Shown in pieces: positions 30,526 to 48,248 of a stretch of 48,248 nucleotides of DNA (positions are counted from its first letter, which is position 1; the number at the start of each line of letters is the position of its first letter). A program made the position numbers and the translations under genes. The notes beneath the pieces were generated by a model, which was not told the DNA's origin, ran no database searches, and saw only the letters and a list, made by a program, of their open reading frames with translations. This DNA is from Phycisphaerae bacterium (GTDB lineage Bacteria; Planctomycetota; Phycisphaerae; SM23-33), in NCBI GenBank assembly GCA_011050235.1, contig DRGC01000025.1, positions 1 to 48,248 of the forward strand. The letters are read 5' to 3'.

Positions 30526-33500
30526 ATGCGCATCCGCGCGAAAGGGCTAAGTGTGGATTCGATTAAGGCTAACCGTTCCTCCGACGTCGTGAAGTTCGAG
30601 AACCTCGAGCCGCGCCTGCTTCTCAGCAGCATGTTGTCTGTGGAATCCTTGGACTTGACCACAGCGGTCGATCTGATCCAACTCGAATATAACATGCCCG
30701 CTCTGCAGATTGAGCAGGTCTACTCAGGTGAGGCCGGGCCTCTCTCCCAGGTCGTGCTGGGAGATTCGCAGCTGACGGGGGGGACGGGACAGGTGATGTT
30801 GCCGTCGGTCACCACGCAAGTGGTCATCCCCTACGGGTATGAATTGGCTGATGTGCTGGTCGAGACCGGGGAGAGGATCGTCCTGGACGGACAATACACG
30901 CTGACAGAAGGCGATATACTGATCGCCTCCGACGGCGAAACGACGGCGTCGATGGAGTGGATCGACCGGTCGAACGGGTATGAAGTCGTGGGTGTTTACG
31001 GCCGGCGCGGCGTGGACATTCTCGTGCTGAATTTCTATCCGGTGGAGTACTCCTTGCAGGCGGGAACGCTGTCGTATTTCGACTCGTTGGCATTAAGCGT
31101 GCAGTTGACGCCCAGCGATATGGCGCCGGATCAGTCGCATCAGCTTCTCTATCGCGCCGACGATATTCGCCCCTTGTCTGATCAAGTGGATAACCCCGCC
31201 GCACTGGCCAGCTACGAGGCAGCCGAGTTCGTGGTGTCGGCTGCTACCGTAGGGAGTCTCGTGGACCCCGCCGACACCTACAATTACGTGATTATCACCA
31301 ACAACGCTCTGGCGACCGCCTCGGCCGACTACGACATGGATGACTTTGTCGCCCATAAGCAGTCGCTTGGTTACAGCGTTGCGATGGTGACGGTGGAGGA
31401 CATCTACGCCAATTACACCGGGGCCGATCAGCAGGAACAGATCCGCAACTTCATCATCGCCGCCTACAGCGGCTGGGAGACGGACTTCGTTCTACTCGCC
31501 GGCGACTGGTCCGTCATTCCGGTGCGGAGGCTGTTGGTCCCCGGCAATCTCCCGGACTTGATCGACTCGGACATGTACTATCAGGGCCTCGACGGCAACT
31601 TCAACGCCGACGGCGATGGGTGGTATGGCGAGTGGGGGGTGGACAATCCGGACTACATCTCCGACGTCTATCTCGGCCGGGCGGGGTTCAACAACGTTAC
31701 CCACATGAGCAATTTCGTCTACAAGACCATCACCTACGAGAACAGCATCAATGATCCGTATCGCTACAACGCGCTAATGGTCGGCGAGAAAATTGATGAC
31801 AGTACTTGGTCACAGCCCGCTCTCGATATAATCCGCGCGGACGCCTTCAACCAGGATCCGGACTTCCAGGTGGACACGCTGTATGATAAAGACCAGGTCT
31901 GGGCGGGGGAGGACGTCTTAGCGGCGATGAACACCGATACCTACGCTGTTTACAACCACCTCGGGCATAGCGACGGCGGCTACGTCATGAAAATGTCCGT
32001 AGACCCCCTCAGTCTCCTTTACCGCCCGTCCATCGATCCGAACTTGGTCCTGGCCAATGAGAAGTTCTTCTTCGCCTACTCCCAGGGATGCTGGCCGGGC
32101 TTTCTGCGGGGGGGCGGCAGCATTGCTGAGCAGCTGACGACCTATACCCGCCATGGCGCCGCCGCGGCGATGTTCAACAGCACCTACGGCTGGTACTACC
32201 CCGGCTGGTCCTCGGGCCCGTCGCAGGACCTCAATCTCGAATTCTGGGACGCGCTGTTCGGGGAGGGAATAAACCAGATTGGCGCGATGAATGCGGACAG
32301 TCACGCGGACAATCTTGGCAAGATCGGTATTATCGACGGGTTGGGCAGGCGCTTGTACCAGGCTGTCGTCTACGGCACCACGATCTTTGGCGACCCGTCG
32401 CTGGAGATCATCAGTTTCGATCTGGGCGTTGCGACAGAGCAGTTGGACTGGAGCTACCAGGACCAGGCGTATGACTTCACGCTGGAAGGACGATATGGCA
32501 GCGATCCGTATACATGGTCGATCGTGGCCGGCGCCCTTCCCGCCGGTGTTTCGTTGGAGGCATCCACGGGCATCCTGAGCGGCACACCAACAGCGACCGG
32601 TGAGTATACGTTCACGGTTCAGGTCACCGATGGCCTCAGCGACATTGCCAGCAAGCAGTTCGTTCTGCCGGTTCTCGAGCAGTTGATGATTACGGCCAGC
32701 CCTTCGCTCAATGCGTACATGGATACGGCCTTTAGTGTGTTCGTTTCCGCTACGGGCGGCACGCCGTCGTATAGCTTTACGCTGACGGACGGTTCGCTTC
32801 CGACGGGTCTGGCGTTGAACGGCTCGACGGGCGAGATTTCCGGGGTGACCAGCGCTCTGGGCCAGCACATCTTCTCGGTGCAGGTTGCCGACAGTGACGG
32901 GACGTATCCGCAGACGGATGTCGTGGAGTTCACGCTGGACGTCACGCAGCCGCTGGCCGAGATTCGCGGGCAGGTCTTCTCCGACACCGACGGTGACGGC
33001 CAGCGCGACGCCGGCGAAGGGGGTCTGAACGGCTGGACGGTCCAGTTGGTTGATCTGGCCACCGACACGGTGGTGGCCACGACCGTCTCGGCGAGCGTGG
33101 ACCTGGATGCAAGCGGATCGATTGATCCGGAGACGGAGATGGGCGTCTATAGCTTTGCCGACGTCGCTCCCGGCGACTATGAGGTCCGCCAGGTGTCCCA
33201 GGCCGGCTACGAAGCCACGACCTCCTGGCAGCGCGATGGGCGCGTTTTCGTCGCCGAGGCCGTCTCGGGCAATGTTTTCTTCCACGAGTTCGATCCCGCC
33301 GACGGCAGCATCATCAACACCTTCGCCACTCCCCAACCGGTGCTGATCGCCGGGTACCAGGGCCTGGCTGTTGGCCCGGATAGCCTGTTCTACGTCGACG
33401 CCAACGACCTCCTGTCCCCCACACTGTGGGAACTGGATCTGGATACCGGCGCCGTCATCGACTCCGACCCGTTGACCTTCGGGTTTATGTACGCCATCAA

Positions 33501-34902
33501 GGGCTTGGCGTACCTCGATGGGGAGTTGTACATCCAGTACATGGCCAATGAGATGGCCGTGTGGGACCCGGCCACCGATTCGCTGGTCCGCACCGTCGCC
33601 ATGTCGGCCAACATCAACTCCGGCCTGACGGGCAGCCCCGCAGGTCTTCTTTACGCGACCAATACACTCGGCGAAGTCGTCACGATCGATCCGGCCGACG
33701 GGAGCGTATTGGCGACATTAACGCCCGGACTGGAAACGCTGGACGGCGGGCTGGCCTATTACGACGGCGACCTGCTGGCCGTGCCCTTGGCGATGGGGTC
33801 GCAGGTGTATCAACTCGACCGCCTGACCGGCGGCGTGCTCGACACCTTTGTCCTCAGTGGCCTCTTTGCCAACTTTGTGGGCTTCGGCGGCGATGCCTTG
33901 CCGACGCCTGTGTTTGGCGTCTTGGGAGTGACCGTCAATTGGGGCGATGTGGAGGTGGGCCTGGACCTTGGCAACCAACCGTTGGCTATCCCGGGCGACA
34001 TGAACGCCGACGGGTTGGTGAACGCCCTGGACATTGATCTGCTGTGCGCCAACTTCGGTGTCGGTGTGGATCCGAAGTTCGATCTGGACGGTGACACGGA
34101 CGCCGATGGCGACGACATGACCGTGCTGCTCCACGATCTGCTTCAGACCGAGTACGGCGACTTCAACCTCGACGGATTGGTCGACGCGACGGACCTGGCC
34201 GCCATGAAAGCGGGCTTCGGCCACGCCGGCGGCTGGGCCAACGGCGACGCCAACGGCGACGGCCTCGTGTCCGGAACAGACCTGGCGATCTTGAAGCTGT
34301 ACTTTGGCTTCATAGCGCCCGCCGCCCCCCAGGCCCCGGCAGCTCCGCAAGAGGCCGAAGCTCCGGCTGAGCCGGATCCCGGCAGCATCAACACCAGCGC
34401 CGCTATCTCGCTGGCGCCGGCGCCGCAGGAATCGTTCGGCGGCTCGCGGCTCGGCCCGGCACGTGCCGGAACTATCTCCCCGCTGTCGGGCCCAACGCCC
34501 GCAGAATCGCCGGCTCGTCAGGTCGACATCGCCATTGCGGCTGCGGCCAGGCCGGCGATAACAGCCGCCCCGACGCTGTTGCCGTCGCTGACGCCCGACG
34601 TTGCGTACGTCATGGCCGAGACCTTGCTGCTCGATGACGCTGCAACGACGGGCCGGATTCACACAGATGTCACCCGGCCGGCTACGCCGGCTGGGCCGCC
34701 GGACTGGCTGGGCTTTGGCAGCCCGGCGAGAAGGCTCGGCCCCGCCCGGACGCCGACGACGCCGGCAGAGCTGACGATCCTGACCGACGGCAGCGCCCGG
34801 CCGATGGCTGCACTGGCCGGAGCGATTGACGCATCCATGTTTGCCGGCGCGGACGTGCTGGTGGATGTTCTAGCCGACGTGGAGAGCGTCTTTACCTTCT
34901 GA
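30526..34902 (+). CDS. Giant secreted gingipain-like (C25) cysteine protease with LEPR-XLL motif, Ig-like, SdrD-B-like and dockerin repeats
   Basis: The 1458-residue protein starts with a short basic region and FENLEPRLLLS (24-34), the planctomycete LEPR-XLL signature. A C25 peptidase region follows (about 250-640), with His in VYNHLGHSD (H478 or H481) and Cys in YSQGCWPGF (C522) as the likely dyad. Two putative Ig repeats lie at about 648-715 and 728-805, and an SdrD-B-like domain at about 810-900 (RGQVFSDTDGDGQRDAGEGG). A beta-propeller-like stretch comes next. Two dockerin-like calcium repeats follow, at about 1156-1200 (GDMNADGLVNALDID) and 1211-1262 (GDFNLDGLVDATDL, then GDANGDGLVSGTDL). 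The last 190 residues are Pro/Ala-rich. No ordinary signal peptide is seen. It is probably exported and cell-surface or cellulosome-like. Confidence 0.88.
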   Translation: MRIRAKGLSVDSIKANRSSDVVKFENLEPRLLLSSMLSVESLDLTTAVDLIQLEYNMPALQIEQVYSGEAGPLSQVVLGDSQLTGGTGQVMLPSVTTQVVIPYGYELADVLVETGERIVLDGQYTLTEGDILIASDGETTASMEWIDRSNGYEVVGVYGRRGVDILVLNFYPVEYSLQAGTLSYFDSLALSVQLTPSDMAPDQSHQLLYRADDIRPLSDQVDNPAALASYEAAEFVVSAATVGSLVDPADTYNYVIITNNALATASADYDMDDFVAHKQSLGYSVAMVTVEDIYANYTGADQQEQIRNFIIAAYSGWETDFVLLAGDWSVIPVRRLLVPGNLPDLIDSDMYYQGLDGNFNADGDGWYGEWGVDNPDYISDVYLGRAGFNNVTHMSNFVYKTITYENSINDPYRYNALMVGEKIDDSTWSQPALDIIRADAFNQDPDFQVDTLYDKDQVWAGEDVLAAMNTDTYAVYNHLGHSDGGYVMKMSVDPLSLLYRPSIDPNLVLANEKFFFAYSQGCWPGFLRGGGSIAEQLTTYTRHGAAAAMFNSTYGWYYPGWSSGPSQDLNLEFWDALFGEGINQIGAMNADSHADNLGKIGIIDGLGRRLYQAVVYGTTIFGDPSLEIISFDLGVATEQLDWSYQDQAYDFTLEGRYGSDPYTWSIVAGALPAGVSLEASTGILSGTPTATGEYTFTVQVTDGLSDIASKQFVLPVLEQLMITASPSLNAYMDTAFSVFVSATGGTPSYSFTLTDGSLPTGLALNGSTGEISGVTSALGQHIFSVQVADSDGTYPQTDVVEFTLDVTQPLAEIRGQVFSDTDGDGQRDAGEGGLNGWTVQLVDLATDTVVATTVSASVDLDASGSIDPETEMGVYSFADVAPGDYEVRQVSQAGYEATTSWQRDGRVFVAEAVSGNVFFHEFDPADGSIINTFATPQPVLIAGYQGLAVGPDSLFYVDANDLLSPTLWELDLDTGAVIDSDPLTFGFMYAIKGLAYLDGELYIQYMANEMAVWDPATDSLVRTVAMSANINSGLTGSPAGLLYATNTLGEVVTIDPADGSVLATLTPGLETLDGGLAYYDGDLLAVPLAMGSQVYQLDRLTGGVLDTFVLSGLFANFVGFGGDALPTPVFGVLGVTVNWGDVEVGLDLGNQPLAIPGDMNADGLVNALDIDLLCANFGVGVDPKFDLDGDTDADGDDMTVLLHDLLQTEYGDFNLDGLVDATDLAAMKAGFGHAGGWANGDANGDGLVSGTDLAILKLYFGFIAPAAPQAPAAPQEAEAPAEPDPGSINTSAAISLAPAPQESFGGSRLGPARAGTISPLSGPTPAESPARQVDIAIAAAARPAITAAPTLLPSLTPDVAYVMAETLLLDDAATTGRIHTDVTRPATPAGPPDWLGFGSPARRLGPARTPTTPAELTILTDGSARPMAALAGAIDASMFAGADVLVDVLADVESVFTF

Positions 34903-38056: not shown

Positions 38057-39004
38057 TTAGCCTCCACCGGCGGGCATCGTCGCTGGCGCCGCTGCAGGCT
38101 GAGTGGCTGGGGGGCTCGGCTCGGCCGAACGGTCGTGCCAGGGCGGGATCTCGATGGAGGCTGAGTCGCGCCAGGCCGTCGCGTAGAGCCGTGCCGTGAA
38201 CGTCGCCGCCGCCCGCGCGCGCTCGGCGGCGAAACGGCCGACGGGACTGTCGGCCTGGAGGGACTCGTCGGGGTCCGGCAATTGATCTTCAAGCTCATAC
38301 AGCCGGTCGACCCGTGCGTGGGAGGAGCGGATCTCGGCGATGATGCCGGCGAATAGATCATCCAACGGCTGGGCGGCAACTGGATCGATGGCCAGGTCGA
38401 GGTCGTCGGGCAGTTTGCCGATCAGGGCGTCGACTTTCTGGTGGATGCCGCTGGTGGGCGATCGGCCGGCCTCGTCGAGGCGGCCATCGTAGTGAACGGT
38501 CGTGTGCAGGGGCTGGCAGATGTCCTGGGCGTAGTGGGCGAGCAGGCCCGCGTAGACGAGGCACTTGGTGCGGATGTGCGGGTTGTCGGGCCAGGCACGG
38601 TGCTCGGCCAGCGCGGACGTGAGGCGCTGGGTCCATTCGACGATGGCATAGGGCGCCAGGCCCACCTGATCGGGCCGAAGATTGTTGCGGCCGCACCAAC
38701 GCAGCATGTCAAAGCGGGCGGTGGGGATATCGACGCCCTCGAGGTGCTCGAGATCGAAATAATGCTGCGGTGATTCGGTTCGATCCAGATCGGTATCGTC
38801 CATCAAGGCGCGGAAGACATCGGGCTCGAACGCGAGATGCGCGATGGTGTCGGCGCCGTCTGCGAGGAAAGAGGGCATCGATTCGGGCAGAGCGGCCAGG
38901 GCCAGCCGCGTCGTCCGCTGATGCCCAGGATCGTGCCACCCCTGAGCGGCCGCAGCGACCAGCAGGGCGGCCATGAGCACCGCGGCAGATTTCGACAAGG
39001 TCAT
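38057..39004 (-). CDS. Secreted S1/P1-nuclease / zinc phospholipase C-like protein
   Basis: The 315-residue protein has a signal peptide (MTLSKSAAVLMAALLVAAAA, then QG). Cleavage before Trp23 would expose the N-terminal Trp that binds zinc in the S1/P1 and phospholipase C families. Further ligands fit H28 in WHDPGH, D84 region HYFDLEH, and HYAQDICQPLHTTVHYDG (H157, D161, H167, H171), the hallmark of the fold. Members are Zn-dependent nucleases or phospholipases working outside the cytoplasm. AAGGAG precedes the ATG. The C-terminal 35 residues are Pro/Ala-rich and unlikely to be catalytic. Substrate (nucleic acid or lipid) cannot be chosen from the sequence. Confidence 0.82.
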   Translation of the reverse strand: MTLSKSAAVLMAALLVAAAAQGWHDPGHQRTTRLALAALPESMPSFLADGADTIAHLAFEPDVFRALMDDTDLDRTESPQHYFDLEHLEGVDIPTARFDMLRWCGRNNLRPDQVGLAPYAIVEWTQRLTSALAEHRAWPDNPHIRTKCLVYAGLLAHYAQDICQPLHTTVHYDGRLDEAGRSPTSGIHQKVDALIGKLPDDLDLAIDPVAAQPLDDLFAGIIAEIRSSHARVDRLYELEDQLPDPDESLQADSPVGRFAAERARAAATFTARLYATAWRDSASIEIPPWHDRSAEPSPPATQPAAAPATMPAGGG

Positions 39005-39215: not shown

Positions 39216-39866
39216 TTATTTGCGACGACGGATCAGAGCCCCTAGTGTCCCGACAGCAAGCAGGCCCATCGTGGCCGGCTCGGGAATGAAGAAGGTAGTG
39301 CTGATGACTTCGCCACCACCCGTGCCGCTGATGTAGAAGTCGAGCGTCACTTCCTCGCCGACCTGCGTCACGATGTTCGCCAGGATCCACGTCGGAACAG
39401 CGTCAACCGCGAAAACACCCGTCAGGGTCGTGCCGAAATCCGTATCGAAGCCGGCTCCGACTTCGGCGCTGGCCATGGTGACATCTTCGTTCGGGGCCGT
39501 GGCAATCAGCAGATCGGCGATGACAAGCAGGAAGTGCGTGTCGATCGCCGTTGCCAAAAGGGTACTGTCCGTTGTCGGGGTCGACGGGACGAGCCCGGTG
39601 GCGTACTGCTGGTGCAGCTTACCGGTGATGCCGGTATAGCCGAACTCAGGCGTTTGACCGTCAAAAGACGACGGATCCAACGTCTCGTCTTCCGTCTTGT
39701 TTTCAATCCTCAACGTGACCGCCCACAGGCTTTCCGAGCCATCACCAACCTCTACGGGGTCGGTGATGAAGGCATCATACACCGAGCCGTTGAACACTTT
39801 AAAGTCTGCGTTGGCAGCCCCAGCCAACAGGCTAACCGCCAACAACATGACGGCAAGTTTCTTCAT
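39216..39866 (-). CDS. Secreted PEP-CTERM protein A
   Basis: The 216-residue protein has a signal peptide (MKKLAVMLLAVSLLAGAANA) and a C-terminal PEP-CTERM sorting signal: IPEPATMGLLAVGTLGALI followed by RRRK. PEP-CTERM proteins are exported by Sec and processed at the membrane by an exosortase; no exosortase gene lies in the window. The body is acidic and beta-rich, with no enzyme motif. Its second half is clearly similar to the partial protein at 47908, sharing IADLLI, EDVT, ASAE, DTDFGT, TGVFAVDAV, LANIVT and GGEVI. AAGGAG precedes the ATG at 39866. It lies downstream of the SecA-like operon but has its own promoter and terminator. Confidence 0.88.
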   Translation of the reverse strand: MKKLAVMLLAVSLLAGAANADFKVFNGSVYDAFITDPVEVGDGSESLWAVTLRIENKTEDETLDPSSFDGQTPEFGYTGITGKLHQQYATGLVPSTPTTDSTLLATAIDTHFLLVIADLLIATAPNEDVTMASAEVGAGFDTDFGTTLTGVFAVDAVPTWILANIVTQVGEEVTLDFYISGTGGGEVISTTFFIPEPATMGLLAVGTLGALIRRRK

Positions 39867-39988
39867 CGTCTGCTCCTTGTTTCCTACGTCTTCTTCCGTT
39901 GAGCTCCAGGAACCACTCCACAGAGCTGCGTTGCGCGATACCGGGAATTGGAAAACACACACGTGTAACATCCACCGTTACGGCTGCT

Positions 39989-40248: not shown

Positions 40249-42237
40249 TTATACCTCGCTGCCGGCGAAGCCAAGGTATTGGTCCAGCCAGTCATCCGTC
40301 CGAAGGACGCCTTTGCGCTGACGCAGGGCGAGTCTCTCGGCGCGGCGTTGAGTGCGGTCGAACATCGTCCGTGTCAGCGTCGAGGATATCTCGCTTGTGG
40401 TGCTGCCGTAGCGCCGCCGTAACGCGGCCGAGAATGTTTTCGCGTGACGCTGGACCAGTTCATCGTCCAACGCCTCGAAGGCCTGGGCCGTTCCCGCATC
40501 GCCCTGGCGGGCGCAGCGGCCGAACAGTTGGCGATCGATTCGTCCGGCCTCATGGCGCTCGGTGGCGATCACGTGCAGCCCGCCCAACTCGGCGACGCCT
40601 TGGCCGAGCTTGATGTCCGTGCCTCGCCCGGCCATGTTCGTCGCGACGGTGATTCGGCCCGCCTGGCCGGCGCGAGCGACGACCTGGGCCTCCTCGGCGT
40701 GGCGAACGGCATTGAGCACCTGGTGGTCCAGCCCGGCCTGGGTGAGCATCTGCGAGAGGCGCTCGCTGGCGCGGACCGACCGCGTGCCGACGAGCACGGG
40801 CCGGCCCGTTTCGTTCAGTCGGCGGATCTCATCGACGATGGCCCGCCACTTGCCCTCCCCCGTGGCGTAGACCTGGGCCGGCAGGACCTGGCGGATGCAG
40901 GGGCGGTCGGTGGGGATCACGACGATCGGCAGATGGTAGACCTGCCAGAACTCTCGCCACGCCTCGGCCGCCGTGCCCGTCATCCCGGCCAGGCTGCGGT
41001 ACATGCGGAAGAATCGCTGGAAGCTGACGCGGGCGTAGGTCTCCTTGGGCGGTTCGATGTCGAGCTGCTCCTTGGCGGTGACGGCCTGGTGCAGCCCGTC
41101 GCGCCACTCGCGGTCGGGCATAAGCCGGCCCGTGAACTCGTCGACGATGACGACCTCGTCTTCCTGCACGACGTACTGCTTGTCGCGATGGTAGAGGGCC
41201 CGGGCCGTCAGCGCCTGGGTGACCAGTTCCTCGCGTCGCCGCGCCCCGTGCCAGATGCCGCCCAACGGGGCGGCCAGTTCGCCCAGGCGGCGTTTGCCGG
41301 TCGGGGTAATGTCGACCTCGCGGTATCGATGATTGACACGGTAGTGGGTGTCTTCCTGAAGCTCCGTCGCCAGATGGGCCGCCTGCTGAAAGGCCTCGAC
41401 CTGCTGGGGATTTGGCGCCTCGCCGGAGATAATCAGCGGCGTGACGGCCTCATCGACCAGGATCGAGTCCGCCTCGTCGACGATCGCCCGCGCCAACCCT
41501 CGCTGCACCAGACGATCGGCGGCGCTGCCGCCGCCGTCGACCAGCTTGGCCAGCAGCGCCTCGGGCAGGGCCTTGATCCCCCCCAGGGCCAGTCGATCGC
41601 GCAGGAAGTCGGCGGCGACCTCCTTGTTGGTCGTGTAGGTGATATCGGCGTGGTAGGCGGCGAAGCGGTCGGGCGGCTCGGTTTCCTGCTGGATGGACGC
41701 GACCGACAGCCCGCAGAACCGATAGATTGGGCTCATCTCCTCGGCGTCGCGCTGGGCGAGGTAATCGTTGGCCGTGATGATGTGACAGCCCTTTCCCCGC
41801 CAGCCGGCGACGGTCGCCGGGAGGGTGGCCGTGAGCGTCTTGCCCTCGCCGGTGGCCATTTCGACGATGCAGTCGGCCTCCAGCGCCAGCGCCCCGGCGA
41901 CCTGCACGGCGAAGGGCTTGAGGCCGATCTGGCGAAAGGCGACCTCACGGATCAGAGCGAAGGCGCGGTCGAGATCCTGCGGCGTGTCCCGCCCGCGGCG
42001 GAATCGCTCGCGGAACTGGTCGGAGTGCTCGCGGAGTTTCGCCTCGGCCATATTGGCGAAGGCCTTGTCCATCGCGATGATTCTGTCGGCGCGGGTGAGG
42101 AACTGGCGACGCGTCACGCGCAGGCGTTTGAGCCAGCCTCCGGCGGCATCCCAGATGGCGTCGAGCCCGCTGGGCAGGGGCTTGCCGGGCCGTCGCTGGG
42201 CGAGCGTTCGCCAGGTTGTGCTGGGAAGCTCCAGCAT
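40249..42237 (-). CDS. SecA-like ATPase lacking the usual C-terminal region
   Basis: The 662-residue protein has the SecA motor: Walker A MATGEGKT (127-134), the pre-Walker B TNKEVAADFLRDR, the DEAD-type motif VDEADSILVDEA (D254-D257), the helicase motif GTRSVRASERLS and TNMAGRGTDIKLG. SecA is usually 800-950 residues; here the protein ends soon after the second motor domain, so most of the helical scaffold/wing domain and the zinc-binding tail are missing. It is therefore a paralogue and not the housekeeping SecA. The ATG overlaps the stop of the M50/HlyD gene by one base (TGATG), which couples translation of the two. It is the last gene of the operon. It probably powers movement of a specific substrate; this is inference. 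Confidence 0.9.
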   Translation of the reverse strand: MLELPSTTWRTLAQRRPGKPLPSGLDAIWDAAGGWLKRLRVTRRQFLTRADRIIAMDKAFANMAEAKLREHSDQFRERFRRGRDTPQDLDRAFALIREVAFRQIGLKPFAVQVAGALALEADCIVEMATGEGKTLTATLPATVAGWRGKGCHIITANDYLAQRDAEEMSPIYRFCGLSVASIQQETEPPDRFAAYHADITYTTNKEVAADFLRDRLALGGIKALPEALLAKLVDGGGSAADRLVQRGLARAIVDEADSILVDEAVTPLIISGEAPNPQQVEAFQQAAHLATELQEDTHYRVNHRYREVDITPTGKRRLGELAAPLGGIWHGARRREELVTQALTARALYHRDKQYVVQEDEVVIVDEFTGRLMPDREWRDGLHQAVTAKEQLDIEPPKETYARVSFQRFFRMYRSLAGMTGTAAEAWREFWQVYHLPIVVIPTDRPCIRQVLPAQVYATGEGKWRAIVDEIRRLNETGRPVLVGTRSVRASERLSQMLTQAGLDHQVLNAVRHAEEAQVVARAGQAGRITVATNMAGRGTDIKLGQGVAELGGLHVIATERHEAGRIDRQLFGRCARQGDAGTAQAFEALDDELVQRHAKTFSAALRRRYGSTTSEISSTLTRTMFDRTQRRAERLALRQRKGVLRTDDWLDQYLGFAGSEV

Positions 42238-44423
42238 CACAGCACCTGGAATCGCCGTTGGATGAGCTGTCGAAACGCGCGCCACCACTGGGCGGCCAGC
42301 GGCTTGGCCGCCAGCGAGATGCGAACGATCACGCGCTGGCCGGTGAGCAGGCGAATGTTCTCCGGCGTGTGCGGGATGATTCGGATCTCGAAGAACCGCT
42401 CGGCCGCCTTCGTTCCCTGCGGGTCGTCGGGGGCAACGGCTGTTTGTCCGCCGACGCTGTAGCCGAGCGAGGCGGACGGCAGGCGCTGCTGGCCGGCGTC
42501 GGAGATTCTCGTGATTGTGCCGGGGAACCGATCGTCGGGGCGGCCCCGAATGCGAATGTCCACCTCATCGCCTTCGGTCCCATGGAGCCTGGCGCCGACC
42601 TTCTGCCCGGCGATAGCCCGGATCAGGAGGTTATCGAGGCTGACGACCATGCCGATGTTCTCGCGGCCGGCGGGGTCGAGGTAGGCCCCTCGCTTGTTCT
42701 CGATATCGGCGGCCAGCCACGTGCCGGCTGTTTCGGCATGAGGTTTCAGTTCGGCCAGCAGCTTCCTGATTTCCTGGATCTTACTTTCGCCGACGGCGAG
42801 CTTGCCCGCAAAGATCGTGGCGACAAAGGGCTCCTCCTGGGCGAGGGCGTAACGGCGTTGGATTTCGAGTTGGCGCTGCTCGGCCTGGAGGCCTTCGAGC
42901 TCGGCGGCCAAGGTGTTGTTCTCGCATTCGAGCAGGACCTGTCCGGGCTTGACCAACGTGTTGTCGGGCTCGAAATCGACCAGGAACCCGCCGATCCTTG
43001 GCGCCGCTACGAGCAGGATGTCGACGGGCTCGACGATGCCCTCCAAGCGGACGCGGTCGGGCGCCTTGATCCAGCCCACGGCGACCAGAACGATGGCGGC
43101 AAAGGCCAGGATGGATCCGACGGCCCGGGGGCGGACGCGCATCAGCTCATTGTTGGTCGCGAGGTAGTGAATCACCTTGCCCAGCGGCATCAACAGCCAC
43201 AACCCCACCGCCCCCACCGCCATCAGCACACCGATGAAGAAGAACCGGTTGGCGATCATCAGGATGATGGCCGCGCAGATCATGACGCGATAGATCGTCG
43301 AGGCCACACCGTAAAACGTGAACCACGCTTTCTCGCCGCGCGTGTGAGCGGGGTTGTTGGCCCGGCGGACACCGAAGACGTAGCGCTTGATCAGATAGGT
43401 GAGGTACTGGCGGCTGCGCGGGGCGAGATTGGGGATCTCCAGCAGGTCCGACAGAATGTAGTACGCGTCGTAACGCAGCAGGGGGTTGCCGTTGAATAGC
43501 AGCGTCGAGACGCTGGCGATGAACATCATGTTGTAGCAGAGGGCGTGAACCATCGCGGTCTCGCTGGTCTGCGTCCAGACGATCGCGGCGATCGCCGCGA
43601 TGGGAATCTCGACCAGCATGCCGGCGGCGCCGATGGTGATGCGGCGCCACTTGCTGCGCAGGGCCCACGCGCTGGTGGCGTCGACATAGGGCAGGGGCGT
43701 GAACACCAGCAGCATCACGCCCATGGCGTGGACCTCACCGCCGCCTTCATCGCGCCCGAAGCGTTTACATGCGAAGGCGTGGCCGAACTCGTGGAAGACC
43801 TTCACCAGCAGGGCCGCCAGGTACAGCAGCGGCAGGTTCGACGATTCGAGCACGTCGGTGCCGGCCTTGAACAGCTCCCCCCAGTGCCCGGCGACAAAAT
43901 ACAGACCCGCGGAGACCAGGACGGCCCAGAGAATCCATCCCCACCAGGCGAAGACCTTCCCGAACAAGGCCAGCCAGCGGTTGAGGAAGTGGTCGGGGTC
44001 GAACAGGGGGATGTGGATGAACAGGATGTTGGTCAGTCGGCTCTGGATTTCGCGGCGGCGGCGCTGCTGGTGGCGTTTCAGCAGGCCGGCGGCGTCGGGC
44101 GGCATTTCGCCCTGGAGCAGGTTGGAGGTATACAGTTGGCCCAGAAGTTGGATGGCCTCGCCTTGGGTGGGGGCCTCGTCGCCGAGCTGGTCGTTGCAGA
44201 CGTCCCAGACATCCGCGATCGTTCGCCGCCCGTCCAACAGGGCCACGAAGTGGTAGGCGGGCCCGTTGAGGCGGAAGAACTGGTTGTTGCTGGGGTCCTG
44301 CAGGACGTGCCACATCACCCCACGGAAATGCTGGCGCGTGATCTGCACTGTCGAGCGCAGGCGCGGCCGAAGATCGGCCACCCGATACCAGGATTCACTG
44401 AACGTGGGTCGTTCGACCGGCAT
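42237..44423 (-). CDS. Fusion of PqqD-like domain, M50 intramembrane metalloprotease and HlyD-type adaptor
   Basis: The 728-residue protein has three parts. Residues 20-110 resemble PqqD-like peptide-binding domains (FFRLNGPAYHFVALLDGRRT, then GQLYTSNLLQ). Residues 155-430 form a multi-pass membrane protein with the site-2-protease motif HEFGH (211-215) and the third metal-ligand motif NGNPLLRYDAYY (D319). Residues 450-728 are a HlyD-like periplasmic adaptor with lipoyl-like strands (RIGGFLVDFEPDNTLVKPGQVLLECEN) and a coiled-coil hairpin. M50-HlyD fusions are annotated as peptide zinc metalloproteases in other bacteria and are linked to peptide export. GGAGCGATAG precedes the ATG. Gene order and coupling place it with the SecA-like ATPase. 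Confidence 0.88.
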   Translation of the reverse strand: MPVERPTFSESWYRVADLRPRLRSTVQITRQHFRGVMWHVLQDPSNNQFFRLNGPAYHFVALLDGRRTIADVWDVCNDQLGDEAPTQGEAIQLLGQLYTSNLLQGEMPPDAAGLLKRHQQRRRREIQSRLTNILFIHIPLFDPDHFLNRWLALFGKVFAWWGWILWAVLVSAGLYFVAGHWGELFKAGTDVLESSNLPLLYLAALLVKVFHEFGHAFACKRFGRDEGGGEVHAMGVMLLVFTPLPYVDATSAWALRSKWRRITIGAAGMLVEIPIAAIAAIVWTQTSETAMVHALCYNMMFIASVSTLLFNGNPLLRYDAYYILSDLLEIPNLAPRSRQYLTYLIKRYVFGVRRANNPAHTRGEKAWFTFYGVASTIYRVMICAAIILMIANRFFFIGVLMAVGAVGLWLLMPLGKVIHYLATNNELMRVRPRAVGSILAFAAIVLVAVGWIKAPDRVRLEGIVEPVDILLVAAPRIGGFLVDFEPDNTLVKPGQVLLECENNTLAAELEGLQAEQRQLEIQRRYALAQEEPFVATIFAGKLAVGESKIQEIRKLLAELKPHAETAGTWLAADIENKRGAYLDPAGRENIGMVVSLDNLLIRAIAGQKVGARLHGTEGDEVDIRIRGRPDDRFPGTITRISDAGQQRLPSASLGYSVGGQTAVAPDDPQGTKAAERFFEIRIIPHTPENIRLLTGQRVIVRISLAAKPLAAQWWRAFRQLIQRRFQVL

Positions 44424-44438
44424 CTATCGCTCCGAAGG

Positions 44439-46358
44439 TCACCACCACATCCGCATCCTGATCCAGTTGACCAGCCGCTGCGTCCACAGTTCGCCGTAGG
44501 GCTTGGTGCCGAGGTGGATTTGCCCGACGCCTTCCATGCCCGGTCGCATCCAGTCCTTCTGCTCGGTCAGGTGAACGGTCACCTTGAAAACGTTCTTCTG
44601 GCTGATGACTTCGGCGACCGGATGGACCTGCTTGACGGTCAGGGCGATCCGCTCGCCGGGCCGGGCCGCAACAGCCAGTTCGCCCGTCAGCGGCTCGGAG
44701 CGCTTCGGATCGTTCATCAGCCGAAGGATATCGGCGATCTCATCTTCGGGGATATAGAGGTCGGCCCGCAGTGTTTCGAGGGGGGCCACCTCGAACAGCA
44801 CCTCGCCCATCTGTACCGGCCCGCCGATGCGGCGCTTCAGATCGCCGGAGATGACAATCCCGTCGATGGGGCACTTGATTGAGGCCTGGTCGATGTGGCG
44901 CTTGAGCAGGAGAATCCGGGCCTGGATCTGGTCGACCTGGGCAGCGGCGATCTGGCCTTCGGCCGTTTTGCGGTCGCGGTGGGCGGCGCGTTCCTGCATT
45001 CTGTAGCGGTGCTTTTCGGCTTGGGCCTCCAACAGCTGCAAGTCCAGATCGCCCGTATCGAGTTGGGCCAGGATGGTGTAGCCGGCCTGGACTCGCGCGC
45101 CGGGCTCGACGCGGACATCGGCGAGGCGCCCGTCGAAGGGGGCCGGCAGGATCTGGCGGTGGACGGCCTCCAGGACGAACGTCCCTTCGGCTTCGTCGTT
45201 GCCCTTGGCGAATGTCAGAAAGGCGGCAAACCCCAGCACGGCGATGGCGGCCACCTTGGCCCAGGTGTGCTTGGGCCCGATCACCACGCCAAAGGCTTTT
45301 TGAATCTGGCTGGCCGCCCGGGCGCCGACCCAACGGTCCCGTTCGTGCAGGTCCGTCAACCGGGCCGTGCACAGGTCCGCTGTCAGCCGAAGGGCCTCGG
45401 CGTCTTCGGTGGCAAACGGCAGGTCGCTGGGGCGCTCCAGCGTGAGGACAGCCTGCGCCTGGCCGCCCGGTCGAAGCGGCAGCGACAGGACGCTCGTGGG
45501 GCCGTGATGTTTCGAAAGCCCCGACGCGCAGCGGTTGACAAATGTCGCGCTGGGAGCAGCCGGGAAGATCACCTCGACGTCCTGGTCGAGGCATTCTTCC
45601 ATGGCGGCCTCGATGTCCTGGGCGATCTTCATCTTTCGGGAGAATTTTTCGGTGTGGCTGAGGGCGGCCAAGCGGACGTATCGCCCCTTGAGGAATCCCA
45701 GGCTCACGCGCTCGCACTCCCATCGGCTGGCCAGTTCGTTACAAAAGGCCATTGCCATGCCGCGGAACCGCCCCATGTCGTTGAGGGTGGCCAGCACCTC
45801 CATGGCCGCCCGCAGGCGTTGCATGTCAGCCGTGCGGCGCTGCAGCGTCAGCCGCATCTCGTACAGCCCCAGTAGGCTGATGGTCAACTCGAGCTTCTCC
45901 CGGCTGGCGGCCAGGATGTGCTCGTCGCCCGTCTCGACCAGAAAGACCGCCAGTCCCTGGAGATCCTGTTGACGCGTGGGCAACGGGATCAGAACCAAGT
46001 GGCGCTGGGCTCCCTGCCCGTACATGTCGTCCGGACCGCGCACCGGCACGATGGCTGTCGTGCCGCCGGCGATGATCTTGCGGGCGTCCTCTGCCGCGTG
46101 GGCCAGCCACGACGGCGCGGTCGCGCCGGCCGGGTGAGGGGGGAAGACGGCCAGGATCTCCAGCCGTCCTTCGGCGTCGGTCCGCAGGATCGCGCCCGCC
46201 GCAGCCGCACTGACCTGACACTGGACGGCCAGCAGGTTGATCAAGAACTCGTGCGGCGGCCCCTGAAAGCGGCTCAGCCGCGCCACCAACTCCGCCGTGG
46301 AGATCGGTGGCGGGGTCGGCTGGTGAGATTGGCTCGCTTGCAGCTCGTCAGCAGCCAT
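44439..46358 (-). CDS. GAF-domain sensor fused to a HlyD-type membrane adaptor
   Basis: The 639-residue protein begins with cytoplasmic GAF-like domains (about 30-340; LINLLAVQCQVSAAAAGAIL and WECERVSLGFLKGRYVRLAAL). A single membrane segment follows (about 367-385), then a HlyD-like adaptor (395-625: RQILPAPFDGRLADVRVEPG, VQAGYTILAQLDTGDLDL, then a coiled-coil hairpin). The GAF part could sense a small molecule or protein and gate the adaptor. A fusion of GAF with HlyD is unusual. Fifteen bases separate it from the M50/HlyD gene. It has no outer-membrane partner in the window. The precise role is unknown. Confidence 0.86.
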   Translation of the reverse strand: MAADELQASQSHQPTPPPISTAELVARLSRFQGPPHEFLINLLAVQCQVSAAAAGAILRTDAEGRLEILAVFPPHPAGATAPSWLAHAAEDARKIIAGGTTAIVPVRGPDDMYGQGAQRHLVLIPLPTRQQDLQGLAVFLVETGDEHILAASREKLELTISLLGLYEMRLTLQRRTADMQRLRAAMEVLATLNDMGRFRGMAMAFCNELASRWECERVSLGFLKGRYVRLAALSHTEKFSRKMKIAQDIEAAMEECLDQDVEVIFPAAPSATFVNRCASGLSKHHGPTSVLSLPLRPGGQAQAVLTLERPSDLPFATEDAEALRLTADLCTARLTDLHERDRWVGARAASQIQKAFGVVIGPKHTWAKVAAIAVLGFAAFLTFAKGNDEAEGTFVLEAVHRQILPAPFDGRLADVRVEPGARVQAGYTILAQLDTGDLDLQLLEAQAEKHRYRMQERAAHRDRKTAEGQIAAAQVDQIQARILLLKRHIDQASIKCPIDGIVISGDLKRRIGGPVQMGEVLFEVAPLETLRADLYIPEDEIADILRLMNDPKRSEPLTGELAVAARPGERIALTVKQVHPVAEVISQKNVFKVTVHLTEQKDWMRPGMEGVGQIHLGTKPYGELWTQRLVNWIRMRMWW

Positions 46359-46376
46359 CGGCCGAGAGTCTCCGTG

Positions 46377-46757
46377 TTAGACGCTGTCTTTGCGCCGCTT
46401 GTTGACGTCCAGCTCCAACTCGCCATACTGTTCCTCGTGACGACGGATGACCTGGCTGAGCGTAATGGCCAGGCGCTTGGCGGAGTAGTAGTTCAACACC
46501 ACGCGGTCGGTGACCTTGAAGAGGATCTCGGGCGTCGCCTTCTCGGCAGTTTGCACGACCGGCATGTTCAGTCCGAAATCGATCATCACCTCTTCGGCCG
46601 TTCCGTTGGCTCGAAAGCCGTTGGCATAGGAGGTGCTCATCTCGCGCTCGTCGATGCGCAATCGCACCTGCGCGTTGCCTGTCTGCTCCTGAGCCTGCTG
46701 CTGGGTCTGTGGGTCTACCGCGCCCTTGTCAGCGGAATCTTTTGCGTCTTTAGCCAT
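46377..46757 (-). CDS. DUF3467-family protein
   Basis: The 126-residue protein has a Gln-rich N-terminus and a conserved domain from about 30, ERE-MSTSYANGF, VMIDFGLNMP and KVTDRVVLNYYSAKRLAITL, ending in YGELELDV. This matches DUF3467, small bacterial and archaeal proteins of unknown role. There is no signal peptide, so it is cytoplasmic. AGGGAG precedes the ATG. It is cotranscribed with two HlyD adaptors: 12 bases after one and 18 before the other. It may be a regulatory or chaperone subunit of the export complex, but nothing in the sequence proves it. Confidence 0.85.
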   Translation of the reverse strand: MAKDAKDSADKGAVDPQTQQQAQEQTGNAQVRLRIDEREMSTSYANGFRANGTAEEVMIDFGLNMPVVQTAEKATPEILFKVTDRVVLNYYSAKRLAITLSQVIRRHEEQYGELELDVNKRRKDSV

Positions 46758-46769
46758 GAGGTACTCCCT

Positions 46770-47741
46770 TTATGCTTCGATGTCAGCGTCTGTCTCGCTG
46801 TCGTCACTCTCTGGGGGCGTCGCAACCGGGGCGGGCCCGGCCGGGGTGGGGCTGGTCGGCTCGTTGGGCGTCTCTGCCTCGGTCGCGTCGGCGGTGGGGC
46901 CAAAGCGCACCCACATGCGCTGACCGGCCGGGCGGGTGCTGCTGTTGGGGGCTTCGACGCGGACCATCAGCGTGTCGCTGGCGGCGTCGGCGACCGAGGC
47001 GATGTGGATGATCTTGCCGACCACGGGCGAGGAGCCTTCGCCGCCTTCGCCCTCGGCCAGGGCGACGCTGGCGGGTTGTCCGACGCGAAGGCCGCTCGCC
47101 TGCGTCAGCGGCGTGGGCACGTCGATCCACAGCGGATCGATCGCCACGATACGGATCACGTCCTGCAATGCGTCCACGCTTTCGCCGACCTCGACGGTAA
47201 CGGTTTCCACAATGCCGTCGATGCTGGAGACAAGCTTCATGCGATCCAGTTGCAGCCGTGCTTCCTCGTAGGCGCGCGCCGCCTGCTCTTTCTCGAACTT
47301 CGCCACCCGCACGCGCAGCGAATCGATGAGCACCTGCAGCTTGGCGTGTTCGACTTCCAGCGGGGTTGCAGCGCCTCGTTCGGCGGCCCATTCGATCTTC
47401 TTGAGGTCCACTTCGCTCTGGGCGAGCTGCGCCTCGGCGGCCTCGATGTTGATGGTGTTGTCGCTCTGGGCCTTCTGTTGGGCCAGGGCGGCCTGTTCGA
47501 CCTGGTCGTCCAGGTGGACGAGCATCTGCCCGGCCGTGACGGCCTGACCGTCGATGACCAGCACCTGCGCCACTCGTCCGGGACGCGTGAAAGACAACGT
47601 CACGTCCTTGCTGGGACGACCGACGGCCTCGATGGGGGGATCATCCGCCAGGGCCAGCCCCGCAGCGTGGGCGGCCAACAGGACCGTCAGCAGCCCTGCG
47701 ACCCGCGAATTGCCCCGAATACGTGATTGATGCAAGCGCAT
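46770..47741 (-). CDS. Secreted HlyD/MFP-family periplasmic adaptor
   Basis: The 323-residue protein starts MRLHQSRIRGNSRVAGLLTV with a signal peptide ending near ALADD. The first lipoyl-like half is seen at GRVAQVLVIDGQAVTAGQML, a coiled-coil hairpin spans about 80-160, and the second half is MKLVSSIDGIVETVTVEVGE. The C-terminus is an acidic Pro/Thr/Glu-rich tail. It is an RND/ABC-type membrane-fusion protein without transmembrane helices. The frame is open further upstream to 47888, but only this start is followed by a signal peptide; CAGGCC is a weak ribosome binding site. It is the first gene of the five-gene operon. Confidence 0.87.
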   Translation of the reverse strand: MRLHQSRIRGNSRVAGLLTVLLAAHAAGLALADDPPIEAVGRPSKDVTLSFTRPGRVAQVLVIDGQAVTAGQMLVHLDDQVEQAALAQQKAQSDNTINIEAAEAQLAQSEVDLKKIEWAAERGAATPLEVEHAKLQVLIDSLRVRVAKFEKEQAARAYEEARLQLDRMKLVSSIDGIVETVTVEVGESVDALQDVIRIVAIDPLWIDVPTPLTQASGLRVGQPASVALAEGEGGEGSSPVVGKIIHIASVADAASDTLMVRVEAPNSSTRPAGQRMWVRFGPTADATEAETPNEPTSPTPAGPAPVATPPESDDSETDADIEA

Positions 47742-47907: not shown

Positions 47908-48248
47908 TTAGCGTCGTCGGCGTCTCAACGCAGCCAGTCCGCCCAGCGCCAGCAAGCCCATTGTGGCCGGCTCGGGGATGTGAACGGTGAAGCTGGTATC
48001 GATGACTTCACCACCCGCCGTGCCGTTCATGAAGAAGAGGAGCGTCACAGTCTGGCCTTGCGGCGTCACGATGTTCGCCAGGTCCAACGTCTCAACAGCA
48101 TCAACCGCGAAAGTACCTGTCAGGAACGTGCCGAAATCCGTATCGGCAAATCCATCGAACGGGAAAGCGGCGTCAGAGGCTTCGGCGCTGGCCAGGGTGA
48201 CATCTTCGCTGGGGGCCTCGACAATCAGCAGATCGCCGATGACAACCA
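47908..48248 (-). CDS. PEP-CTERM protein B, C-terminal part (cut by the window end)
   Basis: The minus-strand frame is open from the window edge to a TAA at 47910-47908. The last residues are IPEPATMGLLALGGLAAL plus five Arg, a PEP-CTERM sorting signal. Upstream it reads IGDLLIVEAPSEDVTLASAE, then FADTDFGTFLTGTFAVDAVE, LANIVTPQGQTVTL and GGEVIDTSFTV. These align closely with PEP-CTERM protein A at 39216, so the two are paralogues placed on either side of the SecA-like operon. The start and signal peptide lie beyond the window. Confidence 0.87.
   Translation of the reverse strand, partial: VVIGDLLIVEAPSEDVTLASAEASDAAFPFDGFADTDFGTFLTGTFAVDAVETLDLANIVTPQGQTVTLLFFMNGTAGGEVIDTSFTVHIPEPATMGLLALGGLAALRRRRR

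Follow-up and report, generated by a model that had tools for sequence, protein, structure and literature searches.

The window analysed here, i.e. the whole stretch of 48,248 nucleotides, is the entire contig C25 (DRGC01000025.1) of a 4.0-Mb draft genome of a member of the Phycisphaerae (GCA_011050235.1). Five collinear genes are situated on its minus strand, in the order HlyD, DUF3467, GAF-HlyD, PqqD/M50/HlyD and short SecA (Table 1). The first four genes are separated by 12, 18 and 15 bases, and at the M50/HlyD–SecA junction the TGA and ATG of a TGATG overlap by one base at position 42237. This layout had been described in an earlier reading of the DNA (the original prediction), and its coordinates and gaps were confirmed. 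Also in agreement with that reading, Pfam searches revealed no ABC-type ATPase or permease and no RND pump among the five genes, and no further family was frequent beside the other cassettes examined.

Two similar PEP-CTERM proteins flank the operon (39216-39971 and 47908-48248, both on the minus strand, the second cut off by the contig end). Downstream of the operon, the region 38057-39004 gives a weak S1/P1-nuclease-like match (20.7 bits, below the cut-off). A link between the cassette and PEP-CTERM/exosortase was considered and rejected as not specific, since exosortase was found in 147 of the 150 class genomes, irrespective of the cassette; being near-universal there, it is weak as a control.

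Table 1. Features of the window, in order of position. Motif and domain coordinates are those of the window; residue numbers (aa) are those of the encoded protein.
Feature	Position	Strand	Description
Predicted cargo	30526..34902	+	C25 peptidase/He_PIG/SdrD_B/dockerin protein, 1458 aa
N-terminal LEPR-XLL leader motif FENLEPRLLLSS	30595..30630	+	aa 24-35 of predicted cargo; NF012209, 20.3 bits, cut-off 17
Short SecA	40249..42237	-	NBD1, PPXD, NBD2, first part of scaffold helix
DEADS	41464-41478	-	In short SecA
Walker A	41836-41853	-	In short SecA
PqqD(RRE)/M50 intramembrane protease/HlyD fusion	42237..44423	-	728 aa
NGNPLLRYD motif	43467..43493	-	Third metal ligand Asp319; N, NP and D invariant in 16- and 56-member alignments
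HEFGH zinc-protease motif	43779..43793	-	His, Glu, His invariant in 16- and 56-member alignments
PqqD/RRE-like domain	44109..44372	-	aa 18-105; structure match to leader-bound RREs
GAF-HlyD fusion	44439..46358	-	GAF region, one TM, then HlyD; Pfam
DUF3467 protein	46377..46757	-	126 aa, no TM; Pfam
HlyD1	46770..47741	-	323-aa periplasmic adaptor (RND/MacA-type), N-terminal signal peptide

HlyD1 matches Pfam HlyD_D23 (1e-15) and, above its cut-off, NCBIfam RND_mfp. Its hydrophobic segment spans residues 13-31, and a signal peptide is present if translation starts at 47741. In the GAF-HlyD fusion (Pfam GAF, 7.7e-6; HlyD_3, 5.9e-12), the TM segment is at residues 365-383, with GAF on its N-terminal side and HlyD after it. 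Three proteins of the cassette bear HlyD, the membrane fusion protein component of type I secretion. The HlyD_D23/HlyD_3 and GAF matches exceed the Pfam gathering scores, as does that of the DUF3467 protein (5e-18). An AF2 model of the latter consists of three strands followed by a long helix (mean pLDDT 72). A SecB-like chaperone was considered for this protein; a fold search with this middling model gave no match above Z 4.5, and SecB was not among the matches.

The PqqD and Peptidase_M50 matches in the largest of the fusions lie below the Pfam gathering scores (21 vs 23.4 bits and 19 vs 27.2 bits, respectively). The PqqD/RRE assignment is supported by the model structure (AlphaFold, pLDDT 90 for the protein). 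Residues 18-105 of the model match the leader-bound forms of TbiB1 (5v1v; Z 9.6, 84 aa, rmsd 2.8) and TfuB1 (6jx3; Z 9.5, 84 aa, rmsd 2.9); overall, RRE matches were obtained at Z 9.4-9.6 over 82-84 residues, with the three-strand, three-helix leader-binding fold. The N-terminal domain thus folds, in the model, like RREs and is predicted to be of the leader-binding type, a shared fold being no proof of binding; the fold is consistent with the original prediction that the PqqD part binds peptide. The C-terminal part of the model matches the MacA/MexA adaptors, with Z up to 17. The M50 assignment is supported by the HExGH and NPLLR.D motifs, which are invariant; together they supply the HExxH and distal Asp ligand of site-2 proteases (M50).

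The best NCBIfam match of the M50 part is to daptide_HExxH (NF041824), and the score for NF058609 is 28 bits, against a cut-off of 225. These daptide/epipeptide M50 matches, and the original prediction, raise the possibility that the cassette matures and exports RiPP-like peptides, the RRE fold being typical of RiPP systems. The daptide_HExxH score of 157 bits is, however, far under the 300-bit equivalog cut-off, the neighbourhoods contain no further conserved enzyme gene, and the leader-bearing genes linked to the cassette (see below) encode hundreds to many thousands of residues. A RiPP-like function is, on these grounds, very improbable. The original prediction had proposed a protein or peptide as cargo; the cargo is probably large LEPR-XLL surface proteins, not a small peptide.

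The short SecA matches SecA_DEAD, SecA_PP_bind and P-loop_SecA in Pfam, at E values of 1e-28 or better; no Pfam match to SecA_SW was obtained. It aligns with residues 20-605 of Bacillus subtilis SecA, and the alignment stops at residue 605. In 121 of 123 copies of the short SecA, the C-terminus lies within 11 residues of the point where homology stops, which is where the scaffold helix begins; the 19 full-length SecAs of the comparison set extend at least 188 residues past that point. A short L[SG]F[AST] tail is present in 97 of the 114 complete copies. According to the known structure of SecA, the parts lost by such a truncation are the helical wing, two-helix finger and C-terminal linker. 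Judged from the alignments, the short SecA is without these three parts in nearly all members compared. The ATPase motifs and the preprotein cross-linking domain are present, the Walker A, DEAD-type and motif VI residues being retained in most copies. The 'SecA-type motor' of the original prediction has to be qualified as regards the wing and two-helix finger, and also in view of a cassette subtype without a short SecA, described below.

In a phylogenetic tree, the SecAs of the cassettes group in a single clade (100/100), separate from the full-length SecAs (98/95). The genome from which the window derives encodes a second, longer SecA elsewhere. Additional short SecA paralogues were observed in class genomes (L277-L281), off the cassette and outside the cassette clade, one of them (L278) on a very long branch. 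Housekeeping SecAs in the class have long frames, of about 1,160-1,270 aa (L263-L276), which fits the SecA_SW rearrangement reported for Planctomycetes in the available text of PMC4452313.

M50-HlyD was found in 93 of the 150 class genomes. By match strength, 83 of these genomes carry the main type, and a short SecA is present in 81 of them; the two without it are incomplete drafts. The five-gene order is repeated at most of the 60 loci mapped in the class, with single members often absent; beyond the five genes and large ORFs, no other neighbour was frequent at these loci. A scan of named genomes yielded over 500 relatives of M50-HlyD. The best 80 derive from Alpha-, Beta- and Gammaproteobacteria, delta-proteobacterial lineages, Nitrospira and Omnitrophota; among these 80, a short SecA adjoins the M50 gene in 76, as does GAF-HlyD in 76, with HlyD in 55, DUF3467 in 25 and TolC in 6, counts that are probably incomplete for the smaller genes, which were detected by single-sequence search. 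The gene order is kept across the window's class, the Proteobacteria and other phyla. The original prediction had held that the five genes make up one machine, and had named by-chance neighbourhood in other genomes as what would refute it; in this it is borne out. In Rhodobacterales, SapC family proteins were observed next to either the cassette or the giant gene (L125, 20263-21084; L146, 2058-2855).

The window also contains, 5.3 kb from the cassette and on the opposite strand, a gene whose product carries an N-terminal LEPR-XLL motif (Table 1). Cargo of this kind went unnoticed in the original prediction. Nine LEPR proteins are encoded in the genome, with subtilase, C25 peptidase, SdrD_B, Big, cadherin-like or dockerin domains, which are typical of extracellular proteins, and large proteins situated beside the cassette in several class loci likewise carry LEPR-XLL. 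Among the 150 class genomes, LEPR-XLL was found in 80 of the 93 with M50-HlyD vs 3 of the 57 without it (Fisher 1.9e-24), i.e. with 13 and 3 exceptions; Fisher values assume independent genomes and so overstate the evidence, and the shuffling, copy-number and adjacency results given below are less affected. To take out some of the shared ancestry, the data were also shuffled within taxonomic families; over 20,000 shuffles the count averaged 67.8 and never exceeded 77, vs the 80 observed.

Similar results were obtained outside the class. In an alphaproteobacterial family (296 genomes), with the cassette assigned at a score of at least 279 bits and weaker M50-HlyD matches left out, LEPR proteins were present in 25 of 28 genomes with the cassette vs 3 of 268 without it (table 25/3/3/265; p 7.5e-30, on the same assumption of independence). 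The copy numbers of the cassette and LEPR genes are equal, 2:2 or 3:3, in six genomes of this family, and in 22 of its 32 cassettes the M50 gene follows the end of a LEPR frame at a distance of about 0.9-2.8 kb, approximately the room needed for GAF-HlyD with or without DUF3467. Among other carriers, from mixed phyla, LEPR proteins were found in 47 of 49, vs 0 of 14 controls. The longest LEPR frames comprise 14,390 aa in these 49 carriers and 17,824 aa in the alphaproteobacterial family; the latter frame adjoins a cassette (G266:C4:103221).

In Proteobacteria the giant LEPR gene (4,000-18,000 aa) is usually directly beside the cassette. The upstream ORF was read for nine plasmid cassettes, and in each case it is giant and bears the LEPR motif, for example FEALEPRLLLSAD in Mesorhizobium and METYEPRLLLSAD in Pseudohalocynthiibacter; the annotation of several of these ORFs mentions no more than LamG, Ig-like or calcium-binding proteins. 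TolC is close downstream in two of the nine (Methylosinus and Thalassospira). TolC is usually outside the cassette, and OEP genes are found elsewhere in the window's genome.

Could the association reflect by-chance neighbours, or a co-inherited island without a functional link to the LEPR proteins? Inheritance at the family level does explain part of it, the shuffled mean being already 68 of 80. However, the within-family test, the second phylum, the match in copy numbers and the direct adjacency all remain, and they refute chance or co-inheritance as the main explanation; we consider it scarcely credible. The associations indicate that the cassette very probably serves the LEPR-XLL proteins, co-occurrence in itself not being function.

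A divergent type of the cassette bears on the role of the short SecA. It consists of an M50/GAF-HlyD pair without a close short SecA and is present in 10 class genomes, 6 of which have LEPR proteins. Because this subtype with LEPR proteins has no close short SecA, the short SecA is not strictly required; it is replaceable or not always needed. Divergent pairs without it are among the class loci L077-L092 (e.g. L084, L089 and L091), and some adjoin large ORFs.

The leader consensus common to the class and alphaproteobacterial sets is [FL]E.LEPR[LVI]LLS[AG]D, and the N-terminal motif that co-occurs with the cassette is FE.LEPRxLLS[AG]D. The leaders are usually rich in Arg and Lys. By a crude hydropathy test, in which no signal-peptide predictor was used, a hydrophobic 12-mer was found in 1 of 31 LEPR leaders vs 14 of 16 HlyD1 controls; the start of the single exception is perhaps over-extended. 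As far as such a test can tell, the LEPR leaders are without a Sec-type hydrophobic core, though the proteins have extracellular domains.

Two alternatives involve the general secretory route. According to the first, the LEPR proteins reach the periplasm by other means (e.g. SecYEG), and the cassette processes, anchors or retains them, the short SecA acting as an ATPase for quality control or regulation. In its favour, M50 enzymes are primarily proteases and all catalytic residues are conserved here, the GAF part suggests regulation, and the short SecA is without the parts that push into SecY. This alternative is rather improbable, in that the leaders have no Sec-type core, the HlyD adaptors and adjacent TolC indicate transport, and the preprotein cross-linking domain is kept in the short SecA. 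According to the second, the short SecA is an accessory translocase that acts through the housekeeping SecYEG, in the style of SecA2-only systems, with HlyD/TolC providing a second step from the periplasm to the outside. It overlaps with the explanation preferred here, having the same cargo and a different inner-membrane channel. In favour of this alternative, the short SecA can be aligned with B. subtilis SecA over the full length of its ATPase and preprotein domains, the cassette contains no other obvious inner-membrane channel, and Gram-positive SecA2 proteins are established to use SecYEG (PMC4452313, in its available text). The absence of the wing, finger and linker, leaders that are not Sec-like, and neighbourhoods in which nothing but the cassette genes and large ORFs is common are evidence against it, and this alternative is unlikely, if worth serious consideration.

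Taken together, the data make it probable that the operon is a dedicated exporter of large surface proteins with a non-hydrophobic N-terminal LEPR-XLL leader. The observations in its support are of associations and anatomy: conservation, co-distribution, adjacency, copy number, leader, fold, protease residues and SecA truncation. As to mechanism, the PqqD/RRE-like domain of the M50 protein would bind the leader on the cytoplasmic side, and the short SecA, with its intact helicase-type ATPase and preprotein-binding domains, would feed the unfolded chain. The chain would then cross the inner membrane via the M50 protein or a borrowed channel, which may be SecYEG (no inner-membrane channel was identified in the cassette), and pass onward through the HlyD portions of the two fusion proteins (M50 and GAF), the free HlyD1 and a TolC-type outer-membrane channel. 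The M50 protease would cleave the leader near LLS[AG]|D, and GAF would gate or sense. This SecA-motor/HlyD-conduit mechanism, with this particular order of events, has about an even chance of being correct.

Somewhat more tentatively, the cassette can be viewed as a distinct secretion system, belonging to none of the numbered types, in which a stripped SecA, a leader-binding intramembrane protease and three HlyD proteins would bypass SecYEG and carry LEPR cargo of up to about 18,000 residues from the cytoplasm to the surface in several phyla. If true, it would represent a route by which proteins of 5,000-18,000 residues are exported with neither a Sec signal nor an ABC pump, and in which a SecA motor functions without the two-helix finger.

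Comparison with known systems reveals partial likenesses. With type I secretion (HlyB-HlyD-TolC, and LapBCE for giant adhesins) the cassette shares the HlyD adaptors, TolC in some cassettes and a giant, repetitive surface cargo. It differs in having no ABC transporter, in the fusion of a protease and RRE domain to the adaptor, and in the N-terminal leader motif of its cargo (the only motif examined), the type I signal being C-terminal and uncleaved. The peptidase-containing ABC exporters (PCAT) of double-glycine leaders likewise combine leader recognition and proteolysis within the exporter, but with a C39 peptidase and ABC protein instead of an S2P-type metalloprotease and RRE fold, and the cargo of the cassette is very large. 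Gram-positive SecA2 systems also have a second SecA beside the housekeeping one, and a neighbouring SecA2 clade is reported in the available text of PMC4452313; the cassette SecA is, in contrast, more truncated, its partners are HlyD and M50 proteins, its cargo has a non-Sec leader, and no SecY2/Asp proteins were seen.

The closest precedent is the module of a secondary SecA_DEAD protein, M50/HlyD and GAF-HlyD already described by Kamneva, Poudel and Ward in 2015 (PMC4452313), so the 'candidate new export system' of the original prediction is not new as a module. The two share the gene set, a short SecA without SecA_SW, a distribution from Planctomycetes to Proteobacteria and an occasional OEP gene; in the window, too, a SecA_DEAD protein with no SecA_SW match has M50/HlyD, HlyD and GAF-HlyD neighbours. 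The genes listed in that paper include META1p2399-2402 of Methylorubrum (Methylobacterium) extorquens AM1, a laboratory strain with a single cassette. In the available text of that paper, SecA is proposed as the ATPase and M50 as the pore, the role is called 'completely unknown', no substrate or leader is named, and PqqD/RRE and DUF3467 are unmentioned; that of Zhang 2012, on toxin trafficking, contains nothing on a SecA/M50/HlyD module. Within the open-access literature searched, the LEPR-XLL substrate link is new relative to the 2015 description. The LEPR-XLL domain NF012209 (LEPR-8K), a domain model only, designates precisely the motif found at the N-terminus of the proposed cargo; the motif is mentioned in PMC10868602 and PMC9611531, with no export route given in their available text. 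In the open literature searched, no function has been assigned to the cassette since its description in 2015, and no export route to the curated motif, which is carried by some of the largest proteins of bacteria; each supplies the other's missing half, and the link between them makes both testable in laboratory strains.
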